Assembly (NCBI GenBank): GCA_016213785.1 | Contig: JACQZQ010000044.1 | Coordinates: forward strand, 1-64,000 | DNA: 64,000 nucleotides | From: Acidobacteriota bacterium | Lineage (GTDB): Bacteria; Acidobacteriota; Blastocatellia; Chloracidobacteriales; JADJPF01 | Direction of reading: 5' to 3' | Part shown: piece by piece, positions 28,933-41,332 of the stretch | How positions within the stretch are numbered: position 1 is the first letter of the stretch | Layout: each line of letters starts with the position of its first letter | The notes under the pieces: generated by a model | The model's database searches: none | Told to the model about the DNA's origin: nothing | Seen by the model: the letters and a program-made list of their open reading frames with translations, nothing else | Translations under genes and position numbers: made by a program

Positions 28933-29474
28933 TAGAGATTGAACAAAAATTTAAGTAAAAAAAAATTAGTAGAGCTAAACTCTGGGAAAAATTAGCTCTA
29001 CTAGAACACACGCCGGGTTTTTGTTAAAAGATTCTGGGAGTTAACCAGATGAGAAAATTTAGTGAAAGATTTAATGGAAAATTTATTTGAAAGCTAAACT
29101 AGTGTTATTTCTTATAAATATAGTAATAACTATTTATTACTATTCTTAGAAATATTAAGTTGTTCTGTTCTAGCTCTAAAATTATAGTTGTACCCTCAGG
29201 GTTTAAATTAATCTGTATATAAATTTGTGTTTAAGAAACTGTTTTAGAAAGCTCTGCAAAAGTATTAATAAAGTAGTAAAAACTTGCGAGTAAAAACGCC
29301 TGAAAGAGCTTTTTTTCATAGACAACTTCAAAATATTTAGTTTCATATTTGTTAACACTTTTAATTATTTTTGGCTTCAAATAAGAACGCGCAAGACTAA
29401 GAAAAAAACTATCATTTTCTTTGGAAAAAGTTACCGGATTTGTTAAATAAATAGAATAACGAAGTTAAAAAAAA
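28933..29474. other. Intergenic region after the formate dehydrogenase-type genes
   Basis: About 540 AT-rich bases between convergent genes. It carries the strong inverted repeat at 28967-29003 and otherwise nothing I recognise: no alpha-subunit fragment, no tRNA and no plausible ORF. Confidence 0.55.
28967..29003 (-). terminator. Terminator-like hairpin, also part of a dispersed repeat
   Basis: A perfect 12-bp stem (TAGTAGAGCTAA with TTAGCTCTACTA), 13-base loop. On the minus strand it is followed by a run of nine T. It could terminate leftward transcription from 29475-29783. Its words recur at 5231-5263. Confidence 0.6.
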
Positions 29475-29783
29475 TTAGGCACTACGTCGATGAGGATTAG
29501 AAAGCCTTACTAACTCATCATAGAGAGCATTTACAGTAGGAAAACGGCGGCGATAATCTAAAAGAGAATTGTTTTTATTTAAGAAATTACTTCGGGCAAT
29601 ATCAATTTCTACTACAATCCTATCAATTGCACGTGATGGAAGAGTGATTTGATTGCTCCCAATTATACGCAAAAGCAGTGGACGACCAAGATCTGTTGGT
29701 AGTTCAAGCATTGATACTTCTTGTTTTATACGTTCCTGTTCTACTTCGTCAAAAGTAATAGTCCAGGTTCGATCTATTTGCAT
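29475..29783 (-). CDS. Small hypothetical protein
   Basis: 102 residues, soluble, mixed charge, no Cys, signal or membrane helix. It begins MQIDRTWTITFDEVEQERI and ends in an Arg-rich tail (NPHRRSA). No family was recognised. A weak AAGGA lies 13 bases before the ATG, and a T-run hairpin lies downstream on the same strand, which supports a genuine transcription unit. Function unknown. Confidence 0.55.
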   Translation of the reverse strand: MQIDRTWTITFDEVEQERIKQEVSMLELPTDLGRPLLLRIIGSNQITLPSRAIDRIVVEIDIARSNFLNKNNSLLDYRRRFPTVNALYDELVRLSNPHRRSA

Positions 29784-30040
29784 AAAAACACTAATCCTTT
29801 TAATTTCTAGTTAATTTTTTCTTTGCTATTTAGATATAAGAGAAAAAAACGAAGTTATGTTATCACAAAGCGTTATGCTGGCAAACCTGCACTACAAGTA
29901 ATAAAACCGCTTTCCTTTTTTTCTCTTTATCTATAGAAAATAGAACTAAATAGCTAAAAATAGCTTCTAGATTTTTACTGCTAAAAATAGCAGATTACAG
30001 ATCAATAGAAATAAAGCCATAAAATTATAGAGCAATAATT

Positions 30041-31711
30041 TTATCCAAATATTTTTCCATTCCAAGGCAAGCCCTTTTTCCAACGTCTATAATCATTTAA
30101 GTGCCAAAGCTTAAAGATAAAAGGTTCTTTTAAGTCCCAAATTTGGCAATTAGGCTGACCTACTTGGCTAACCGATAAAATGCTATTAACTGCACGACGG
30201 GCGGCTTCATTAGCTGCTTCCATACAAGCTATATCTGTAAATGTTTGTACGTAATCTGAGGCTAGGAACATATTGTTAACCTGAGTATTTGCCTTAGGTC
30301 GTAGCCCCCAAGTAGAAACATAGTTAACTAGTAAGGGTTCGCCATTTGAAAGCTCTGGACTGCCACCAACTTTTCTAATATCTGGATCAAGTGACCAAGA
30401 ATGTAAATTACTATCTTTAAGAATTTCTTTGCCATTAACATTAACACTTAGTTTCATTTGTTTCCAAACTTCATCTTTTATTTCTTCTCTTGTGCAATTA
30501 TGGGCTTCTTTGCCGTTTAATCCAGGGGTAAACCAATCTGAAACATCGGCAGAAATAATTCCTCTAACCTTTCCATCTCCATATTTACTTAAATCAACGT
30601 CTTTCCAAAATTGATGTTGAGATATTGAAGTTACTGCCCAAGGCGAATCAACATAAGCAACATGACCATGTATCATTGGAACATCTTCTTTAAGGAAAAA
30701 TTGTATTCCATTCATCCATCTAACATATTGTTTAAGCTCTATTATAGAAGCTAGCGAAGGGTCAATAGTTGTTAGCTCTTTAGTAATATAATTAGCCATT
30801 ACTTCAACAGGCACAGCAAATAAAAAGTAATCGCCACGAATTTCTGTCTCTTTTCCTGCTATTTCAACAATAACGCTATAGATTTTTTGTCCTTTACAAA
30901 TTATTTTTCTAAGAGGTGATCTAAGAAGATACTTAATTGGTTTAGTATGTAGTTCTGAGCTTGTTAAATAGCTGAGCCAAGGCTCTATCCAAACATCATT
31001 AGTTGGGCCATTAAGAAGTAAATCGCTTGTGGTAGCAGGACGAATTAAATCTAAAAATAATTGAATAAAAATTGTTCCAATAGTTTTTGTGCTAGCAAGT
31101 TGGCCTTGTGCTGCTGCTAAAGAGCGTGTTAAGCCATTAGCAAAAAATTCTTGGTAAGTTTTAGAGCGATTTTCTGCATCAATATAATGCCACCAGGAAA
31201 GCTTGTCATAATCATCAGTTCTACGTTCTTCACAACTTGTTAGGATTTGAAAAATTCTACAAGCAAAAAACATTAAGTCAGAAAGAGGAACTTTAACAGG
31301 AGGAGCAATTAAATCTTTTAAGACTAGTAGCCAATCAGATAGAGTTTTAGGGAAGCCTGCTATAGTAATAAGGGGTGTTTGCCCAAATTGGTAAAATCCT
31401 AGTCTTGTAGCTTGAACCAAGTTTCCATAAACACCATCTTTATTAGAAACCCCTGTTTTAGGGTTTTTATAAGGGATACGTTTCATTGTATCGGGTAGAT
31501 GCTTATAGAAACTAGGGAAAAACCTAAAACCATGTTCTCCGGGTAAATCTCGCCTTCCATCTTTTCCTGAGCCAATAACTGGAATACTTCGGGCTTTACC
31601 CCCTGGAATAAATTTGGATTCATAAACTTCTACTTCAAATCCTCTTTCTAACAACTCATGAGCCGCACTTAAACCCGCAACTCCTCCACCCAAGATAATA
31701 ACCTTTGGCAT
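30041..31711 (-). CDS. FAD-dependent amine oxidase/phytoene desaturase-like protein
   Basis: 556 residues. An N-terminal Rossmann FAD site (VIILGGGVAGLSAAHEL, then VEVYES about 20 residues on) is followed by GGKARS and EHGFRFFPSFYKH, words typical of phytoene-desaturase and hydroxysqualene-dehydroxylase relatives. The C-terminal FAD closing motif is NNMFLASDYVQTFTDIACME. It is probably a flavoenzyme acting on an isoprenoid or other lipophilic substrate. Third gene of a leftward cassette with an ADC-like gene (20-base gap) and a second FAD enzyme. Confidence 0.85.
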   Translation of the reverse strand: MPKVIILGGGVAGLSAAHELLERGFEVEVYESKFIPGGKARSIPVIGSGKDGRRDLPGEHGFRFFPSFYKHLPDTMKRIPYKNPKTGVSNKDGVYGNLVQATRLGFYQFGQTPLITIAGFPKTLSDWLLVLKDLIAPPVKVPLSDLMFFACRIFQILTSCEERRTDDYDKLSWWHYIDAENRSKTYQEFFANGLTRSLAAAQGQLASTKTIGTIFIQLFLDLIRPATTSDLLLNGPTNDVWIEPWLSYLTSSELHTKPIKYLLRSPLRKIICKGQKIYSVIVEIAGKETEIRGDYFLFAVPVEVMANYITKELTTIDPSLASIIELKQYVRWMNGIQFFLKEDVPMIHGHVAYVDSPWAVTSISQHQFWKDVDLSKYGDGKVRGIISADVSDWFTPGLNGKEAHNCTREEIKDEVWKQMKLSVNVNGKEILKDSNLHSWSLDPDIRKVGGSPELSNGEPLLVNYVSTWGLRPKANTQVNNMFLASDYVQTFTDIACMEAANEAARRAVNSILSVSQVGQPNCQIWDLKEPFIFKLWHLNDYRRWKKGLPWNGKIFG

Positions 31712-31731
31712 TATTGAATCTCCTTAGAATT

Positions 31732-32778
31732 TTAAACTAATTTTTTTAATAGAGTTAAAGGTTTAGACAATTTATAGCAAAGCTTTTCTAGAAAAGAGTT
31801 TGGTGATTTCCAAACAACTTTTCCTCCATCCATTCTAAAATCATAATAGGTATAAAAAGCTGCAAGTACATCGACTTCTTCACCCGTTAGCCCTAAATCA
31901 GAAATAATTGGGTGGCTTTGAAAATTGCTTACCTTAACTTTGTAGTCACCAGATAAAAAACCACCAGTATTAAATTTAGTCATACGAGCAAAGGCATTGA
32001 CTATCGCTTGATAACAAGCACGGTTGCCATTTTCTAAATCACGAAATTGTTTTATAAAAACCATTGGGATTTCTTCATAATGAAGCATGTTTAATAGCTC
32101 AATTACTAAACCTAGGTCTGGCAAGCGAATTGAGCCATCCCCAAATAACATAGAAATAACGTCCTTAAAACCTTCTTCAGCATATTGCCATTTTTTTTCT
32201 AAGCTACCAAGTATGGTGTCATCTGTACGATTAACGGATAATATTTGGTGCATTTTAACTTCATCTTCAGAGTTAAAATAGGGAATTGCTAAAGCATCTA
32301 CGGTTAGTGTTGCATTATGGCTAAAGTCTGTAGGGACAATTAATGTAGCTTCTTGTTTATTAAATCCCCAAGATTCACGGCCAATAACTACTGCCATAGG
32401 GTTATCCACCCAAACATAAGGTAAATACCAAGCTATATGATCAATAAATGTTATCCCACAAATGCTTTTTATTGCTGCAACAGGCACCCAAAAGGCTACA
32501 TCGTTTTCTGACATCCAGCCATAGTTAGAAAAAGGTGGCATTAAAGAATAGCCTTTAGAAATATGCGCAAAACCTAGTATTACTCTTGGGATTAAAGGAA
32601 TATATTTTATTTCGCCTTGAGAGGCTTGGTTAAGTTGTTTATCACAAAGGTCTTGTAGGTTTTCTATATTAGCTTCTAAAACAAAACAGTAAAAATGTGT
32701 ACCATCCATTTTTAATGGCTGAGGATAGGATTGTTCCCCACCAGTATTAATATACCAAGGCTTTTCTGAGCAAAACAT
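31732..32778 (-). CDS. Acetoacetate decarboxylase-like protein
   Basis: 348 residues, about 100 longer than classical acetoacetate decarboxylase. The signature reads IGRESWGFNKQEA (132-144). Lys141 aligns with the Schiff-base lysine, but the neighbouring lysine that lowers its pKa (GFPKK in the clostridial enzyme) is Gln142. It may be a fold relative with another reaction, as known for other ADC-superfamily enzymes. It lies between two FAD oxidoreductases on the same strand with short gaps (20 and 65 bases), so a shared pathway is likely. Confidence 0.75.
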   Translation of the reverse strand: MFCSEKPWYINTGGEQSYPQPLKMDGTHFYCFVLEANIENLQDLCDKQLNQASQGEIKYIPLIPRVILGFAHISKGYSLMPPFSNYGWMSENDVAFWVPVAAIKSICGITFIDHIAWYLPYVWVDNPMAVVIGRESWGFNKQEATLIVPTDFSHNATLTVDALAIPYFNSEDEVKMHQILSVNRTDDTILGSLEKKWQYAEEGFKDVISMLFGDGSIRLPDLGLVIELLNMLHYEEIPMVFIKQFRDLENGNRACYQAIVNAFARMTKFNTGGFLSGDYKVKVSNFQSHPIISDLGLTGEEVDVLAAFYTYYDFRMDGGKVVWKSPNSFLEKLCYKLSKPLTLLKKLV

Positions 32779-32843
32779 GAAGGGTATTACCTTTCTTTTT
32801 GGGCTTTTTAGTCCTGATGAGGACGATTGGAAATACTAAGAGA

Positions 32844-35054
32844 TTAAATTTTTTCACCAATAATTTTTTCTGGATAACCACAAATAGCCCTAGAGGCTGT
32901 CAGTCCTGTAATAACAGTTCCCTCAATACATCCATAATTAAGAGCATTAAATGTCCAGTCACCAACGATAAATAGATTATCAAAACCAGATTCATCAGGT
33001 TTAAGTCGGTAAGATGTGCTCTGAGGAACAGATAAAACATACTGATCTGAAGGATTAACATTCACTCGTGAGTATTGCCACTTAAATCTTTCAATTCCTT
33101 CTCTATTTTCAGGATCAACAAGTAAATCCCAGTCTAGCGCTTTTGAGCCAGATTGAGCGGCATGCGGCCAAATATGACGAGTGTTTTCTTCTAACCAATC
33201 TATAGCAATTTCTTTAACTTTTTCTAGTTCTCGATTTGGAAAATCATAATCTGTAAATGGCGGTAGTTCTCGTGTTGTTTCTCTGGCTCCACAAAAATAA
33301 GCGATGCTACGAGGATAATTTTCTATGTGTTCTTTTGACCAATCTTCTTTATCTATAAGTTGGCTAACGTCTCCCCAAGTATCAAATGGTTCAGCATATG
33401 CAGTAAGGATTGTTTTATGGTGATGCCAGCCTAATGCTTGTCTAGAAGGCTTTAACCAAAGCTGTAAGGCAAGTGTAAAAATAGTCTCGGTCTTTTCTAT
33501 CATTTCCTGCCAAGACTCTTTAGCTTCTATTAACTCTTTACAAATATACTTTAATGCTCCAATAGATATACCTAAGATAACTAGATCAAAATCTTCTCCT
33601 TGTTTAAGCGTTTCCTCCTTAACATCTTGCCAACGAGTCCAAGCAGATTCTAAATTAATGTCTTTCGCTTTAAGTAATTCTCCTTCTTGGAGTTGATCAT
33701 AAAAAGGCTCTGAAGGCCAACAATCTATCCCTTTAATATTTATTAGCGGATTATATTCTCTATATTCAGGTTTTAAGGTTGCTTGACGACCAATAGTAAT
33801 TGTAGAAATATTATTTTTATCGTCTGATAAAGCTAAATTTTTTACTTGGCTAAAAAACTCAAATTTTACTCCTCGGTTTTTTAGGCATTGATAAAGAGGG
33901 GTAAAGACGCTTTCACCCATACTAGCCTGCATTTCCCAAAATAGCGCACCTTTATAAGTAAAAACAAAACGTAGCATTCCATGAATTATTACTCCTGCTG
34001 CTACGGCTCTATATTGCCAATCTCCTTCTACAAACCCTTTAGTAATTCCTCTATGAAACCCAAAGATTGCACTATACATTCCTCTAGTTAATGGCGAATT
34101 TATAGTTATGGTACTTGCTCCATGTTTATGCATCCATTCTGACCATTCATATTTATCAATTGAGTGAAAACCTTTAAATAAAACTCCATCTTCAAGAATT
34201 CCACAAATATGAGTAATGCTAAAATCTAGCATAATCCACATTCGACGAGTTATATTGTGATCATCAACTTCGTCCTTAACCTCTTGCCAAAGCCATTTAA
34301 GGAATTTTTGTAGTAAAGAAGAAAGGTGTTTATGATGTTCTATAGAGTGGTTTTTAGAATCTTTATCTAAACTTTTAGCAAAATCAGATGCATCTAAAAG
34401 AAGTCTAAAACCCGTATGAAAATGAGCTTTGAAAGGATCTTTTGAGCTTTTAGTGTCAGGTTCACTTTCTCCTAAAAATCCATGACATAGATCTTTTAAT
34501 AGAGAATCAACACAATTAACAATACCATCTAGAAGATGAAGCACCTGAGTACAATCAAATTTATTAATTAGCCAATGCTTAAAAGTGTCTATTACAAGCT
34601 CTAGTGCCATTTGTATATAGTCCCAGAGCGAGAGAAGTTCTTTACCATTACCAGGTAACTCGCTATTAGTTGGGAGATCAAGATTCCAAGTAATCCAATG
34701 TTGATTAACATATTCTTCTAGAGTAAAAACACTTTGAGGTTTAAAAGCGTCTTGCCAGGTTGCTAAAGGGGTTTTAGCAGGTCTATCTAGTTCATCATAG
34801 CATTTTCGCATTATTCCAAAAGAGTTATCATAAAAGCCTGCCCAAACATGTAGGCCATGTTCTTCAATACGGTCATTTGCTGATAAATTACGCCCGCTAG
34901 CCCCTTTGCCGCCTAAGCGCCAGCCTAATTGATAAACCGTTATCTCATAATCTTCTTGCCAATTATCTACTGAAGTTATCCCAAAAATTGCAGAAAGCGA
35001 GCCTATACCACCGCCTAAAACAGCAATTTTCTTTGGTTTTTTTACTTCATCCAT
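32844..35054 (-). CDS. Large FAD/NAD(P)-binding oxidoreductase, phytoene desaturase-like
   Basis: 736 residues. The N-terminal dinucleotide site (IAVLGGGIGSLSA) is followed by GWRLGGKGASG and EEHGLHVWAGFYDN, the same pattern as in the third gene of the cassette. The C-terminal FAD motif is NLFIVGDWTFNALNYGCIEG. The middle (about 150-330) is a long, charged, helical insertion that I do not recognise. First gene of the cassette; a candidate promoter lies upstream at 35113-35142. No terpene synthase or prenyltransferase is in the window. Confidence 0.85.
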   Translation of the reverse strand: MDEVKKPKKIAVLGGGIGSLSAIFGITSVDNWQEDYEITVYQLGWRLGGKGASGRNLSANDRIEEHGLHVWAGFYDNSFGIMRKCYDELDRPAKTPLATWQDAFKPQSVFTLEEYVNQHWITWNLDLPTNSELPGNGKELLSLWDYIQMALELVIDTFKHWLINKFDCTQVLHLLDGIVNCVDSLLKDLCHGFLGESEPDTKSSKDPFKAHFHTGFRLLLDASDFAKSLDKDSKNHSIEHHKHLSSLLQKFLKWLWQEVKDEVDDHNITRRMWIMLDFSITHICGILEDGVLFKGFHSIDKYEWSEWMHKHGASTITINSPLTRGMYSAIFGFHRGITKGFVEGDWQYRAVAAGVIIHGMLRFVFTYKGALFWEMQASMGESVFTPLYQCLKNRGVKFEFFSQVKNLALSDDKNNISTITIGRQATLKPEYREYNPLINIKGIDCWPSEPFYDQLQEGELLKAKDINLESAWTRWQDVKEETLKQGEDFDLVILGISIGALKYICKELIEAKESWQEMIEKTETIFTLALQLWLKPSRQALGWHHHKTILTAYAEPFDTWGDVSQLIDKEDWSKEHIENYPRSIAYFCGARETTRELPPFTDYDFPNRELEKVKEIAIDWLEENTRHIWPHAAQSGSKALDWDLLVDPENREGIERFKWQYSRVNVNPSDQYVLSVPQSTSYRLKPDESGFDNLFIVGDWTFNALNYGCIEGTVITGLTASRAICGYPEKIIGEKI

Positions 35055-35112: not shown

Positions 35113-35142
35113 ACTATAGCAAAATCTAAATTGTAATAACAA
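35113..35142 (-). promoter_or_regulatory. Candidate housekeeping promoter of the FAD/ADC cassette
   Basis: On the minus strand TTGTTA (35142-35137), 18 bases, TATAGT (35118-35113). The -10 matches five of six and the -35 four of six consensus bases. It lies about 60 bases before the ATG of the first cassette gene. Confidence 0.4.
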
Positions 35143-35189: not shown

Positions 35190-38100
35190 ATGGTTTTTGA
35201 GCTAGTCGATTATAAACTAGAAAAATTTATTGCCAAAATAAATAAGTTTTCTTTATGGAGTGGACAAAGTAAAAATAACAACCCTGTACTAGTAAAATTA
35301 ATTACACAAGATGCTAGTATCAATTTATATAAGTCTCAGTTAAAACATGAATATGAAATATTAAAGTCTCTAGATTTTATAGATAAGATTCCTAGAGCAT
35401 TAGCTTTTGAACAAAGCCAAGAAGGTGTAGCGATCATTTTAGAAAATAATGATGTGTTGCCACTTTCTATTTATTTGCAAAATCACAAGCTAGCTATTAG
35501 TGATACATTAAATATTATAATTAAAGCCTTAGATATTTTAACTCTTCTTCATCAACAGAAGATTTTACATAAAAATATTAATTTAGATAATATACTAGTT
35601 AGTAATAATCCTAGTAATTTATCTATTAGCTTAATGGGTTTTGATATTTCTTCAAAACTAAGCACAGAATATCAAGTTTTTGTTACTCCTAATGTTTTAG
35701 AAGGCAGTCTTGAATATATTTCTCCTGAACAAACTGGGAGAATGAACACTTTTATTGATTATAGAGCAGATTTTTACTCTCTAGGGGTAGTTTTTTATCA
35801 ACTCCTAACAGGACAATTACCTTTTCTCTCAAAAGACCCTATAGAATTAGTACATAGTCATATTGCAAAGCAGCCTATTTTTCCTTCTGAAATTAATTTA
35901 GATATTCCAAAAACCATTTCTAATATAGTAATGAAGTTATTAGAAAAAAATGCTGCTGAGCGTTATCAAAGTAGTTTTGGGCTAAAGTCAGACCTTGAAA
36001 GATGTTTAAGAGAACTTAATGAAAATAATATTAATGAGTTTAGTTTAGGTAAAGAAGACATTTCAGAACATTTACAGATTCCAAAAAAACTTTATGGTAG
36101 AGAAAAAGAAATAGAATTATTAATAAATACATTTGGAAATATTCGTAATAATAGCGAAATAACTTTAGTATCAGGTTATTCTGGTATTGGAAAATCTTCA
36201 TTAATACAAGAAATATATAAACCAATAACTCAAAAAAAAGGATATTTTATTAGTGGAAAATATGATCAATTTCAACGTAATATTCCTTATAGTGCAATAA
36301 TAAAAGCTTTTACTAATTTAGTAAAACAAATTTTAACAGAAAGTGTTGAGAAAATATTACTTTGGAAAAAAGAAATATTAGATGTACTTGGCACAAATGC
36401 ACAAATTATCATTGATGTAATTCCAGAACTAGCTCTAATTATTGGCACTCAAGAGCCTGTTTCTAAACTTCAAGGGTCACAAGCTCAAATCCGTTTTAAT
36501 TTGGTCTTTCAGAACTTTGTTAGAGTTTTAGCAAAAGAAAATAGCCCATTAGTTTTATTTATAGACGATTTACAATGGGCTGATATATCTTCTATTAATT
36601 TACTAGAAAAATTAATTACAGATTATGAAATAAAATATTTATTTATTATTGGTGCATATCGCGATAATGAAGTAGATGAATCACATCCTCTAATTAATAT
36701 GCTTAATAAAGCTAAGGAAATCAGAGGACAAATTAATCAAATTATTCTTAGCCCTTTAACTTTAGAAAATGTTGAGGGTTTAATTATAGATACGTTTAAG
36801 AATAATTTAATTAGTAATCAAGAATTAGCTGAAATATGTCATCAAAAAACGGCAGGAAATCCTTTTTTCTTAGAACAATTTATAAAAAGATTATTTGACA
36901 TAAAGTTAATTTTTTTTGATAGAAATATTGGTAAATGGTCTTGGGATATAAATAAAATAAAGCAAGCTGATATAACTAGCAATGTAGTAGATTTAATGCT
37001 TGCTAAAATAAAAAGTCTTTCTAAATCTAGCCAAAAAATATTAAAACTAGCTGCTTGTATTGGAAATCAATTTGACTTAAAAACCGTATCTGTTATAAGC
37101 AAAAAAGATATTGCTACAACTTTTTCAAGCCTTTGGCAGCTTTTACAAGAAGGTTTAATCTTGCCTGTTAGTGAAAACTATAAATTTTTAGACTCAGTTG
37201 ATTCTAGTCAAGTAGTTTATAGATTTTTACATGATAGAGTTCAACAAGCAGCATATTCTTTAATTGATAATTCAGAAAAAGAGCTTGCACACCTTAAAAT
37301 AGGGCGTTTAATTTTATCCAACACAACAGAAAAAGATAAAGAAGAGAAAATTTTTGATATTGTTAACCAAATAAATTTTGGTAGTAATTTAATTAGTGAA
37401 ATAGAAGAGAAAATAAATTTAATTAAACTAAATTTATTTGCAGGAGAAAAAGCAAAAGAATCTATAGCTTATGACTCAGCTTTTAGATATTTAAGTACTG
37501 CTATTAAAATACTTCCTTCAAATGCTTGGCAAAATCATTATCAATTGACACTTTCGCTTTATTTAGAAATATCTGAAGCCGCCTATCTTAATAGCGATTT
37601 TGAGCAAATGGAAAATTTTATTCAGAGTGCAATAGATAATGCAAATAATTTACTTGATAAAATAAAAGCTTATGAAATAAAAATAAACTCTCTTGTAGCA
37701 CAACTTAAACCATTAGAAGCAATAAAAATTTCTTTAATGGTGCTAAAACTCTTAGAAATTAATTTACCTGAAAAACCTAGTAAAGCATCGGTTTTAATAA
37801 ACTTATTAAAAACGAAATGGTTACTAAAAGGTAAATCAAAAGAAGATTTAACTAGCTTACCTGTGATGCAAGATCCTTATAGACTAGCAGTAATGCGAAT
37901 ACTTTATGTTATTAATAGCTCTGCTTTTTTTGCTTCTCCAAACTTGTTTATTTTATCCGTTTTTACACGTCTTAATTTATCTGTTAAATATGGTAACACT
38001 AATGAATCTGCACATGCTTATGCTGCTTATGGTTTGATTTTATGTGGTGTGCTGCAACAAATAGAATCAGGTAATGAGTTTGGTGAGATTGCATTAAATA

Positions 38101-40484
38101 TATTAGATAAATTTAAGACAAAACAAAAAGGCTCAGATACATTTTTTGCTGTTTATTCTTTTGTAAAAACTTGGAAAAACCATTTTCAAGAAATGTTAGA
38201 TCCTTTGTTTGAGTCTTATCAAAATGGCTTACAAACGGGTAATGTTGAATATTCTATATATTCTATTCAATCCTATTTAGCTTTTTTAATAATCTCAGGA
38301 AAAGAGCTAAGTTTTGTTAAATCAGAAACTACAAAATATATAAAAGTTACTGATAAACTTAGACATAAGATGGGAAACTATTTAGTAAGAATGTATGATC
38401 AAATAGTTTCAAATTTATCTGATGAAGATATAGATTTTACTAAAGCAGCTAATTTAGTAGGTCAAAGTTATAATGAAAATTTTGTCTTACCAATGTATTT
38501 AACAGCAAATGACCGTACTTCATTAGGAATTTTATATTTTAATAAATTATTTTTAAGCTATTTATTTCAAGATTATAAGCAAGCTATTTCTAACTTAAAT
38601 ACTTTAAGAAACTATTTAGATGGTGTAATAGGGACTTATATTTCAGCTTATTTTTATTTTTATGACTCACTAGTTTGGCTTGCTACTTATGATACTTTTT
38701 CAGCTTTTGAAAAAACACAAATTTATTACAAAGTAGTTTCTAATCAAAAGAAAATAAAAAAATGGATGCAACATGCACCTATGAATTTTTCTAATAAATA
38801 CTTTTTAGTAGAAGCAGAAAAAGCACGAATTTCAAAAAATAATCAATTGGCAGCAAGTTTTTATGAGAAAGCTATAGAACTCTCAAAAGAACATAACTAT
38901 ATTCAAGAAGAAGCCTTAGCAAATGAATTAGCAGGAAAATTTTATTTAAAACAAAAACGAATTGCTAAAATTTATTTTCTAGAAGCGCATCGTTGTTATA
39001 TAAAATGGGGGGCAATTACAAAAGCTTCTCAAATAGAAAAAGAATACCCTGAAATAATAGAGCAAAGTAATAAAATTAATTTTCTAAATAATTCTAAAAC
39101 AAGCACACTTTTACTAGATGCTAAAAATACATCTTTAGATTTAGCTACTGTAATAAAAGCTTCTCAAGCTATATCTAGTGAAATAGTTTTAGATAAACTA
39201 ATGACAGAACTATTAAAAATAGTTGTAGAAAATGCTGGAGCAAATAGAGGGTTTTTATTACTTAAAAAAGATTCTAAATTTTTTGTAGAAGTCCAATCTC
39301 ATAGCGATAAACCTGCAATTAAATTGTCTCAACCAATTCTTTTAGAAGAATGTAAATATCTCTCACAAGCGATTATTAATTATGTGATTCGTACAAAAGA
39401 AAATTTAGTTCTAGATAATGCTTCAAAAGACGATAGATTTATTCAAGACCCCTATATAAAAGGTGCTCGACCAAAATCTATTTTATCAATCCCAATTATT
39501 AATCAAGGGAATTTAACAGGAATTCTATATTTAGAAAATAATTTATCTACAGGAGTATTTACAGTTGAGCGTTTAGAAGTGCTACATATACTCTTAACAC
39601 AAGCAGCAATTTCTATTGAAAATGCAAATCTTTATGATGATCTTAATAAAGCTTTAGAACATGAAAAAATAACTAAAAAAGTTCAAGCTGAACTTTTAGC
39701 TGTACAAAAAGAGCTTGCTTATGCCCGCCAATTACAGCTTTCTATGTTACCTAAAGAAAATCTTTTGTTAGATAAAGTAGAAATAGTTGGACAAATGCGA
39801 ACAGCTACAGAAGTTGGTGGTGATTACTATGATTTTATTAAAATTGATGATAGCCATTATTGTCTTGCTATTGGTGATGCAACGGGTCATGGCGTTGGTG
39901 CTGGTCTTGTAGTTGGAATGATAAAATCTCTTTTAGTTAATTCATTATTAAACTTAAAGCTAGACTCTAAGAAAACTGATGAAAAAAGTGAAAAAAATGA
40001 AAAACCGATAACTCTTGAAATAATGAAAAACTTAAATATCTCGCTTAAATCCTCGCTTGCCTATCGTAGTATGGGAATGGCTTTAACTATTGCTATACTT
40101 GATTTAGAGGAAATGTTAATAGAAATATCTTCTGCTGCAATGCCTCCAATAGTCTTTTACCATGCAGACAAAAAAATTACAGAGACAATAAACCTAGCAG
40201 CACCCCCGCTGGGTTTTGTAAAAAAAATAAACTTAAAATCAACTACTTTATCACTAAAACCAGGGGATAAATTAGTTTTTGTTAGCGATGGTTTTCCTGA
40301 AAGAATGAATAGCGAAAATAAAATGTGGGGGTATGAAACAGTAGTAAAGACATTAAGCCAGATATGTCAAGAAAATCAAAATTCAGAACTAATTTTACAA
40401 AAGCTTTTTAAGGATTGTGATGATTTTGCTCAAGATATTGAGACTAAAGATGATATGACAGGATTAGCTTTCTGTGTTCATTAA
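35190..40484 (+). CDS. Giant signalling protein: pseudokinase, AAA ATPase, TPR-like region, GAF, SpoIIE phosphatase
   Basis: 1764 residues. Residues 5-275 form a kinase-like domain with the usual lysine (VLVKLI) but HKNINLDN in place of HRDLKPxN and GFD in place of DFG. Both aspartates are replaced, so it is probably inactive. About 290-640 is an AAA-type ATPase with Walker A GYSGIGKSS near 330 and VLFIDDLQWAD. About 700-1300 is helical, TPR-like. A GAF domain (1310-1487) and a short coiled coil follow. The SpoIIE/PP2C phosphatase (1510-1764) keeps its metal aspartates in VGGDYYDF, IGDATGHG, VSDGFPE and KDDMTG. This resembles the cyanobacterial/myxobacterial kinase-AAA-GAF sensor family, but with a phosphatase output instead of a histidine kinase. 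Confidence 0.88.
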   Translation: MVFELVDYKLEKFIAKINKFSLWSGQSKNNNPVLVKLITQDASINLYKSQLKHEYEILKSLDFIDKIPRALAFEQSQEGVAIILENNDVLPLSIYLQNHKLAISDTLNIIIKALDILTLLHQQKILHKNINLDNILVSNNPSNLSISLMGFDISSKLSTEYQVFVTPNVLEGSLEYISPEQTGRMNTFIDYRADFYSLGVVFYQLLTGQLPFLSKDPIELVHSHIAKQPIFPSEINLDIPKTISNIVMKLLEKNAAERYQSSFGLKSDLERCLRELNENNINEFSLGKEDISEHLQIPKKLYGREKEIELLINTFGNIRNNSEITLVSGYSGIGKSSLIQEIYKPITQKKGYFISGKYDQFQRNIPYSAIIKAFTNLVKQILTESVEKILLWKKEILDVLGTNAQIIIDVIPELALIIGTQEPVSKLQGSQAQIRFNLVFQNFVRVLAKENSPLVLFIDDLQWADISSINLLEKLITDYEIKYLFIIGAYRDNEVDESHPLINMLNKAKEIRGQINQIILSPLTLENVEGLIIDTFKNNLISNQELAEICHQKTAGNPFFLEQFIKRLFDIKLIFFDRNIGKWSWDINKIKQADITSNVVDLMLAKIKSLSKSSQKILKLAACIGNQFDLKTVSVISKKDIATTFSSLWQLLQEGLILPVSENYKFLDSVDSSQVVYRFLHDRVQQAAYSLIDNSEKELAHLKIGRLILSNTTEKDKEEKIFDIVNQINFGSNLISEIEEKINLIKLNLFAGEKAKESIAYDSAFRYLSTAIKILPSNAWQNHYQLTLSLYLEISEAAYLNSDFEQMENFIQSAIDNANNLLDKIKAYEIKINSLVAQLKPLEAIKISLMVLKLLEINLPEKPSKASVLINLLKTKWLLKGKSKEDLTSLPVMQDPYRLAVMRILYVINSSAFFASPNLFILSVFTRLNLSVKYGNTNESAHAYAAYGLILCGVLQQIESGNEFGEIALNILDKFKTKQKGSDTFFAVYSFVKTWKNHFQEMLDPLFESYQNGLQTGNVEYSIYSIQSYLAFLIISGKELSFVKSETTKYIKVTDKLRHKMGNYLVRMYDQIVSNLSDEDIDFTKAANLVGQSYNENFVLPMYLTANDRTSLGILYFNKLFLSYLFQDYKQAISNLNTLRNYLDGVIGTYISAYFYFYDSLVWLATYDTFSAFEKTQIYYKVVSNQKKIKKWMQHAPMNFSNKYFLVEAEKARISKNNQLAASFYEKAIELSKEHNYIQEEALANELAGKFYLKQKRIAKIYFLEAHRCYIKWGAITKASQIEKEYPEIIEQSNKINFLNNSKTSTLLLDAKNTSLDLATVIKASQAISSEIVLDKLMTELLKIVVENAGANRGFLLLKKDSKFFVEVQSHSDKPAIKLSQPILLEECKYLSQAIINYVIRTKENLVLDNASKDDRFIQDPYIKGARPKSILSIPIINQGNLTGILYLENNLSTGVFTVERLEVLHILLTQAAISIENANLYDDLNKALEHEKITKKVQAELLAVQKELAYARQLQLSMLPKENLLLDKVEIVGQMRTATEVGGDYYDFIKIDDSHYCLAIGDATGHGVGAGLVVGMIKSLLVNSLLNLKLDSKKTDEKSEKNEKPITLEIMKNLNISLKSSLAYRSMGMALTIAILDLEEMLIEISSAAMPPIVFYHADKKITETINLAAPPLGFVKKINLKSTTLSLKPGDKLVFVSDGFPERMNSENKMWGYETVVKTLSQICQENQNSELILQKLFKDCDDFAQDIETKDDMTGLAFCVH

Positions 40485-40549: not shown

Positions 40550-41332
40550 ATGTCTAGTCCTACACAACAATCACGCCGATGTATACCTATATCAAATAGA
40601 TTTTGTTGTTTTGGTAAGTATTATGTTATTGCTTCTACAAGTCTAGCAGGCAGTAAACTAGAACCTGATCAACTTGCTAAAATATTAAGTTTAGCAAATC
40701 CAGAAGATATTAGGATTTTACTTGGTAAAGGTATTTGTATTCCACTAGTTTTTCAAGAAGGCGATTATGTTATGGATAATGCAATTGTTATACTAGGCGA
40801 TCTGACAGAAGAGGAAGAGGCTGAATGGATTGGGCGTATTTGTGGGTACTTAAAAATTGATTGTGGCAAGTTATTATTTGTTGCTGGTGGTGGTGAGCCA
40901 GATGATTGGAAAGATGCATTATTAGGTAAATTTCCTGATGGAGAAGTCTATTGTTTTGATGTGATAGATGTTTCACCAGGAGACTATCTAGTTGAGATTT
41001 ATGCTTATGTTTCTAGTCTAACAGTAGCTGACCATTTTACAGTAGCTTACAATTATAGTGAAGATAGAAGAGAGATGGAAAAATGGTTTCGAAATACTCG
41101 CCCTGATCAACCTTTGCCTAAATGGATAGAGGCTTATGGTAACTGGAATTCACTAACAATCCAGGAAGAATTAGTTGATTATATTATTAGACTTTCCCTG
41201 TTAACCTCTACACCCACATTCCCTCAAATACCAAAACTTGTTCCTAGCATTAACTGGTGCGGTAAGTTTGATTTTAGGCATCCTAAGCTATGCCCTCTTG
41301 GAATTTCTCGATCAAAAGTGTTAGGCAAATAA
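40550..41332 (+). CDS. Hypothetical protein downstream of the phosphatase sensor
   Basis: 260 residues, soluble, acidic, no signal peptide. Cysteines cluster near the start (RRCIPISNRFCCFG) and end. The body has alternating hydrophobic strands and acidic loops (IRILLGKGICIPLVF, GDYLVEIYAYV). I recognise no family. It starts 65 bases after the phosphatase gene and ends at a shared terminator, so it may be a co-transcribed partner or target of that sensor; this is context only. Confidence 0.7.
   Translation: MSSPTQQSRRCIPISNRFCCFGKYYVIASTSLAGSKLEPDQLAKILSLANPEDIRILLGKGICIPLVFQEGDYVMDNAIVILGDLTEEEEAEWIGRICGYLKIDCGKLLFVAGGGEPDDWKDALLGKFPDGEVYCFDVIDVSPGDYLVEIYAYVSSLTVADHFTVAYNYSEDRREMEKWFRNTRPDQPLPKWIEAYGNWNSLTIQEELVDYIIRLSLLTSTPTFPQIPKLVPSINWCGKFDFRHPKLCPLGISRSKVLGK

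Follow-up and report, generated by a model that had tools for sequence, protein, structure and literature searches.

The 64,000-nucleotide window analysed here (contig JACQZQ010000044.1 of an Acidobacteriota bacterium, assembly GCA_016213785.1) carries three genes, designated A, B and C, which follow each other on the minus strand with gaps of 65 bp between A and B and 20 bp between B and C, and a giant receptor gene, K, which is divergent from A and separated from it by 135 bp (Table 1). In a preliminary description that was based on the DNA letters, A, B and C were presented as a cassette of two flavoenzymes around an acetoacetate decarboxylase (ADC)-fold protein, tightly spaced on one strand, which the open reading frames (ORFs) bore out. 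K was missed because it lay outside the marked range. The comparison with other genomes showed that the conserved unit consists of A, B and a giant receptor gene, which in this window is K. As a conserved unit, the A-B-C cassette was rejected; C was not found near A or B in any other lineage examined.

Table 1. Features of the A-B-C and K region (positions are those of the window).
Feature	Position	Strand	Basis
Gene A, 736-amino-acid flavin adenine dinucleotide (FAD)-dependent oxidoreductase with a phytoene-desaturase fold and a helical insertion; large unnamed family	32844..35054	-	ORF, AlphaFold model, relatives
Gene B, 348-amino-acid protein of the ADC superfamily	31732..32778	-	ORF, Pfam ADC, fold match
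Codon of the predicted Schiff-base lysine K141 of B (Q142 next)	32356..32358	-	Conservation, alignment to the ADC FPKK motif
Gene C, 556-amino-acid HpnE/phytoene-desaturase-like flavoenzyme, lineage-specific addition behind B	30041..31711	-	Pfam Amino_oxidase
Gene K, 1,764-amino-acid Ser/Thr kinase - AAA_16 (STAND) - TPR-like - GAF - SpoIIE phosphatase receptor	35190..40484	+	Pfam
Candidate sigma-70-like promoter of A-B-C in the divergent A/K gap	35113..35142	-	TTGTTA-18-TATAGT, 9/12 match

A scan of 11.3 million genome contigs yielded 421 relatives of A, from which the best 80 loci were kept, and 87 A loci were considered in all. B was adjacent or fused to A, in both orders, in 69 of them. 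Thus, the co-occurrence of the three families elsewhere, on which the preliminary description had staked its cassette, was found for A and B and failed for C, which was absent near A outside this lineage. Among the first 80 loci, 22 B-A and three A-B fusions were present, and one further A-B fusion was found later (L186). On the A tree, the fusion state of B changed at least 21 times when every state of B was counted, while unfused neighbours were encoded on the same strand in all 42 cases with a median gap of 26.5 bp. The repeated fusions indicate that A and B are physically coupled. Judging by the record names, the loci with B belong to about nine phyla (Acidobacteriota, Cyanobacteriota, Chloroflexota, Bacteroidota, Myxococcota, Verrucomicrobiota, Pseudomonadota, Planctomycetota and Deinococcota), of which single ones may rest on misbinned contigs because several of the genomes are metagenome-assembled genomes (MAGs). 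Eight loci each contained two A genes.

A giant receptor was encoded no more than two genes from A or B in 64 of the 87 loci. The receptors belonged to three classes: Ser/Thr protein kinase (STPK)-STAND-TPR-GAF proteins with a histidine kinase, cyclase or SpoIIE output, cyclase-STAND-TPR proteins, and 7TMR-DISM proteins with a GGDEF or a histidine kinase-receiver output. Receptor genes made up 64 of the 340 near genes and 4 of the 651 far ones (odds ratio 37, Fisher p 5e-27), a p value that is too good because related loci do not count as independent observations and the choice of classes followed a look at the neighbours. In an independent check of 396 Acidobacteriota genomes, five more carried A, each time at or close to an STPK-STAND or cyclase-STAND gene. 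Similarly, the seven A-bearing genomes among 292 cyanobacterial ones all had the order B-A-K, although this set includes some genomes from the earlier loci, and one locus (L173) has an extra gene between B and A. In a random sample of 299 Pseudomonadota genomes, A was present in four; in three of them its neighbours were a 7TMR-DISM-GGDEF protein, a cyclase-STAND protein and a CadC-like TPR regulator, respectively, and in the fourth A was part of an isoprenoid-looking operon that had no receptor.

The pairing of A with its receptor arose repeatedly. In a tree that included unlinked paralogues, the K-type receptors linked to A did not form one clade; linkage changed eight times, with at least six changes forced by well-supported branches, and the K of the window grouped with unlinked cyanobacterial paralogues. 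The receptor class changed at least seven times on the A tree, which was a quick tree with long branches present. That unrelated receptors were paired with A time and again speaks for a functional link and against the chance inheritance of a block; a single inherited A-receptor block was therefore rejected as the whole explanation. The STPK-STAND-GAF receptors of filamentous cyanobacteria, of which two genomes gave 20 and 24 matching stretches, have the same architecture as K; in contrast to them, K was found as a single copy in its genome, has a SpoIIE phosphatase at its end and has A-B as its partner. At E <= 1e-60, the A-linked K was the only full-length copy found in the genome of the window, the only one found in the Deefgea, Saprospiraceae and Oceanospirillaceae genomes, and one of two in Marinomonas.

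Gene A passed the Pfam cut-off for NAD_binding_8 alone (24.6 bits, cut-off 21.9) and scored far below the NCBIfam cut-offs for HpnE TIGR03467 (22.0, cut-off 283.05), TIGR02731 (17.7, cut-off 569.4) and TIGR02732 (20.3, cut-off 622.15). Its closest relative, which is 83-84% identical, was found in the Blastocatellia MAG nzgw73. Single-sequence phmmer searches found nothing useful among the solved structures for either A or B, and a profile of 32 A relatives reached phytoene desaturase weakly. The best match of the AlphaFold model of A (pLDDT 88) in the PDB was rice phytoene desaturase 5mog (E 1e-17, TM 0.75 by target), followed by amino-acid oxidases. A therefore shares its fold with the plant and cyanobacterial phytoene and zeta-carotene desaturases (CrtP/PDS and CrtQ/ZDS) and HpnE, and the FAD motifs are related (EHGLHIWFGFY in A, ETGLHIFFGAY in the desaturases). 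Unlike these enzymes, A has a large helical insertion and is present in genomes that lack a squalene or phytoene synthase.

Gene B matched the Pfam ADC family (PF06314) with 33.1 bits (cut-off 29.8), and a profile search reached ADC structures from the B family. Its AlphaFold model (pLDDT 88) gave 24 matches in the PDB, all to the ADC superfamily (E 5e-15 to 2e-10) and with nothing else significant, including true ADCs, the aldolase-dehydratase Sbi_00515, Swit_4259 and MppR. In the motif GRESWGFNKQ of B, K141 aligned with the first lysine of the FPKK motif of the solved ADC-family enzymes. That B keeps the Schiff-base lysine and lacks the neighbouring one had already been seen in the preliminary description; across the family, the former was kept in 70 of the 71 members and a lysine at the following residue was present in none. 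Based on the conserved lysine, B should form a Schiff base. In light of what is known of ADC chemistry, the missing vicinal lysine suggests that B is probably not a canonical decarboxylase. B thus resembles the ADC superfamily in its fold, its Pfam score above the cut-off and the Schiff-base lysine, but it is longer (about 350 versus about 250 amino acids), is about 10-15% identical to the solved members, has in no member the vicinal lysine that canonical ADC possesses, and is coupled with a flavoenzyme and a receptor. The sole member with another residue at the catalytic position was one B copy of Polyangium sp. 6x1 (L031), which has a methionine there.

That A and B are a widespread, undescribed enzyme pair that is functionally tied to giant receptors is a defensible claim. 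Its novelty could fall, as it rests on three absences: A and B are not in NCBIfam, they are missing from the PDB as judged by sequence, and the open-access literature gave no description of the pair; the last of these is weak evidence of novelty because subscription papers could overturn it. A was not found in phage records, nor was the B stretch found in viral contigs. Among the PADLOC defence families, A and B had no match, K was matched by its kinase domain alone and C by 39 residues of an FAD motif. A phage or defence origin was rejected on these grounds.

Several observations bear on the substrate. The phytoene-desaturase fold of A together with polyprenyl synthetases among the neighbours hints at an isoprenoid. 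Such synthetases were found inside two A/B clusters. In Polyangium sp. 6x1 (L031:5703-14364), B and the A/B genes flank a fusion of the synthetase with a lipocalin-like domain that matches CrtC weakly, while in the pseudomonadotal genome G949 (L184:6507-15984), the operon consists of A, an unknown 256-amino-acid protein, a polyprenyl synthetase, a saccharopine-dehydrogenase-like protein and two B genes. The latter operon adjoins a gene for a 620-amino-acid protein that has no Pfam match and that appears SLOG- and membrane-like by eye. A second hint, of hydrophobic uptake, comes from the genes for TonB receptors or FadL that adjoin A-B in some marine and Azospirillum loci. The absence of a biosynthetic core, which the preliminary description had noted, held for the neighbouring genes that were read, but not for the genome, which has three squalene/phytoene-synthase genes on other contigs (G000:C84:53984-55624 and G000:C39:141864-142631), two of which are adjacent in a hopanoid-like layout. 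A squalene/phytoene synthase was absent in seven of 11 A/B genomes, whereas the same search found it in the other four. Consequently, neither carotenoids nor squalene of endogenous origin are the substrate in general, and both were rejected for these seven genomes. A linear prenyl chain from housekeeping metabolism is possible, as is a fatty acid.

From the linkage, the fusions, the conserved lysine and the folds that were observed, we infer a substrate, a reaction and a role for the product. A would act on a hydrophobic substrate, for which a linear isoprenoid chain is the likeliest candidate, by oxidising, desaturating or isomerising it. B would form a Schiff base via K141 with a keto or aldehyde group and might carry out an aldol, dehydration or decarboxylation step. 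K would then bind the product, for which its TPR or GAF region is the probable site, and would thereby change its phosphatase or kinase output. We tentatively favour, at somewhat short of even chances, the view that A and B are consecutive enzymes whose small lipophilic product is the ligand of the neighbouring receptor. The undescribed small-molecule modification system that the preliminary description had proposed would therefore be a fair half of the answer, but the evidence favours an enzyme-receptor module over a stand-alone biosynthetic cassette.

In bacteria, systems that consist of a signal synthase and its cognate receptor are known, for example CqsA/CqsS and LuxI/LuxR. As in these, the dedicated enzyme genes adjoin the receptor gene and the output domains are exchangeable, and the consistent gene linkage expected of a synthase and its receptor was observed (64/87 loci, 7/7 in the cyanobacteria and 5/5 in the Acidobacteriota). 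Unlike these, A and B are two unrelated enzymes that are often fused, they occur with three unrelated receptor classes whose outputs are largely not DNA-binding, and they extend over about nine phyla. It is possible, though we hold it with less confidence than the ligand role of the product, that they represent an undescribed class of bacterial small-molecule signalling in about nine phyla, in which the A/B pair produces a signal derived from an isoprenoid and unrelated receptors (STAND kinases, cyclases and 7TMR-DISM proteins) have repeatedly been coupled to it.

Several points weigh against the favoured view that the receptor reads the product of A and B. In 23 of the 87 loci, no giant receptor was encoded within two genes, in some merely because of contig ends, and several A loci had no B. 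The receptor domain models were seeded from the neighbours of A, and the choice of classes was post hoc for the 80-locus set. In the Pseudomonadota sample, only two of the four A genomes had a giant receptor, the third having the CadC-like DNA-binding regulator and the fourth none. The contigs of nzgw73 matched positions 29195-32085 and 38454-32849 of the window, so that A-K and B-C are on separate contigs with the break straight behind A, which may reflect a rearrangement or an assembly fault. Finally, the 7TMR-DISM receptors face outward and the STAND receptors are cytosolic; hence, one ligand would have to reach both sides of the membrane, or the ligands differ.

The nearest competitor is local control, i.e., A and B make an ordinary metabolite such as a membrane lipid, pigment or protectant, whose production the receptor adjusts in response to a stress or an environmental cue without reading the product. 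Large STAND and 7TMR-DISM sensors are often used for environmental sensing, the divergent layout of K and A in the window is typical of a regulator and its target, and a DNA-binding regulator of the CadC type stands at one A locus. However, the STPK-type receptors were mostly co-directional with A and behind it (25 co-directional, 4 divergent, 1 convergent), which fits co-expression better than upstream control. Moreover, no DNA-binding family was among the 25 commonest Pfam matches of the 36 receptors that were scanned; their outputs are kinases, cyclases, diguanylate cyclases and phosphatases, i.e., mostly diffusible or phospho outputs. The receptor is therefore not simply a local transcription regulator, and its outputs fit reporting on something better than such regulation. 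Since unrelated receptor types have also been recruited repeatedly, we consider local control rather unlikely.

A catabolic or scavenging module, in which the receptor detects and reports an imported hydrophobic compound that A and B break down by oxidation and cleavage, seems improbable. TonB-dependent receptors were encoded beside A-B in Pseudoalteromonas, Catenovulum and Aliiglaciecola, and a FadL-type porin in Azospirillum, which hints at hydrophobic uptake; an imported terpenoid would also fit the genomes without a squalene/phytoene synthase, and the 7TMR-DISM sensors face the extracellular side. However, genes for further degradation, such as those for coenzyme A ligases, beta-oxidation enzymes and monooxygenases, were not recurrent beside A-B in the clustered neighbourhoods, nor was any transporter in the cyanobacteria and acidobacteria, and the two A/B clusters that contain a polyprenyl synthetase suggest synthesis. 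It is very improbable that A is a flavoprotein redox or light sensor and B a ligand-binding barrel that communicate their state to the receptor through direct contact and release no product, because, even though fusion and tight linkage would suit a sensory complex and A retains its FAD-binding motifs, a binding-only protein would not need the near-invariant catalytic lysine of B and in none of the loci examined was an A or B domain part of a receptor protein.

Should the receptors indeed read the product of A and B, that product would provide a handle on the inputs of two large orphan receptor groups, the STPK-STAND-GAF proteins, of which some cyanobacteria have twenty or so, and the 7TMR-DISM proteins, and it would represent a new family of chemical signals. 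Culturable and genetically tractable carriers include Shewanella sp. ANA-3, in which a B-A fusion adjoins a 7TMR-DISM-GGDEF gene, Pseudoalteromonas, and Marinomonas sp. MED121, which has a B-A-K operon; a natural fusion is about 1,040 amino acids long. Even if the regulatory reading alone holds, a defined class of regulators is linked with an unnamed pair of enzyme families that about nine phyla have conserved.

Gene C matched Pfam Amino_oxidase (56.6 bits, cut-off 19.8). It is shorter than A and resembles HpnE and ZDS, yet its scores were far under every NCBIfam cut-off (HpnE 57.6, cut-off 283.05; TIGR02731 20.5, cut-off 569.4; TIGR02732 45.0, cut-off 622.15). No C-type homologue was found near A outside this lineage, five other A-bearing genomes had no such homologue, and the adjacency of B and C was found only here and in the close relative nzgw73 (B 83%, C 88%). 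C would be a further oxidoreductase that was added in this lineage. The nearest parallel was found in a Chloroflexi MAG (L023), where a 446-amino-acid amine-oxidase-like enzyme immediately precedes A. With this locus and the eight that have two A genes, the combination of two flavoenzymes and one ADC-like protein recurs in a loose sense. Elsewhere, the homologues of C adjoin genes for DUF3237, PNPOx, polyprenyl synthetase, TIR or encapsulin proteins, with the polyprenyl synthetases found in Ruegeria and Streptomyces. On a plasmid of Ruegeria sp. AD91A (L008:4030-12199), a cyclase-STAND-TPR regulator, a family 1 encapsulin shell protein, DUF3237, a C homologue (48%) and a polyprenyl synthetase are encoded in a run, which could represent an encapsulated or shell-associated prenyl oxidoreductase pathway. 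In another acidobacterium (L133:8802-11501), a gene for a TIR-domain protein follows the C homologue after 64 bp.

The single candidate promoter noted in the preliminary description exists as a weak match. However, 15 promoter-like matches were found in the region against 19.6 +/- 4.0 expected from shuffles, i.e., there was no excess, and the candidate is therefore of little weight. Directly behind K, on the same strand, a 260-amino-acid protein that has no Pfam or NCBIfam match is encoded at 40550-41332. The segment 46001-48000 has a G+C content of 45.5% compared to about 34% for most of the window and is possibly foreign or ribosomal RNA-like.

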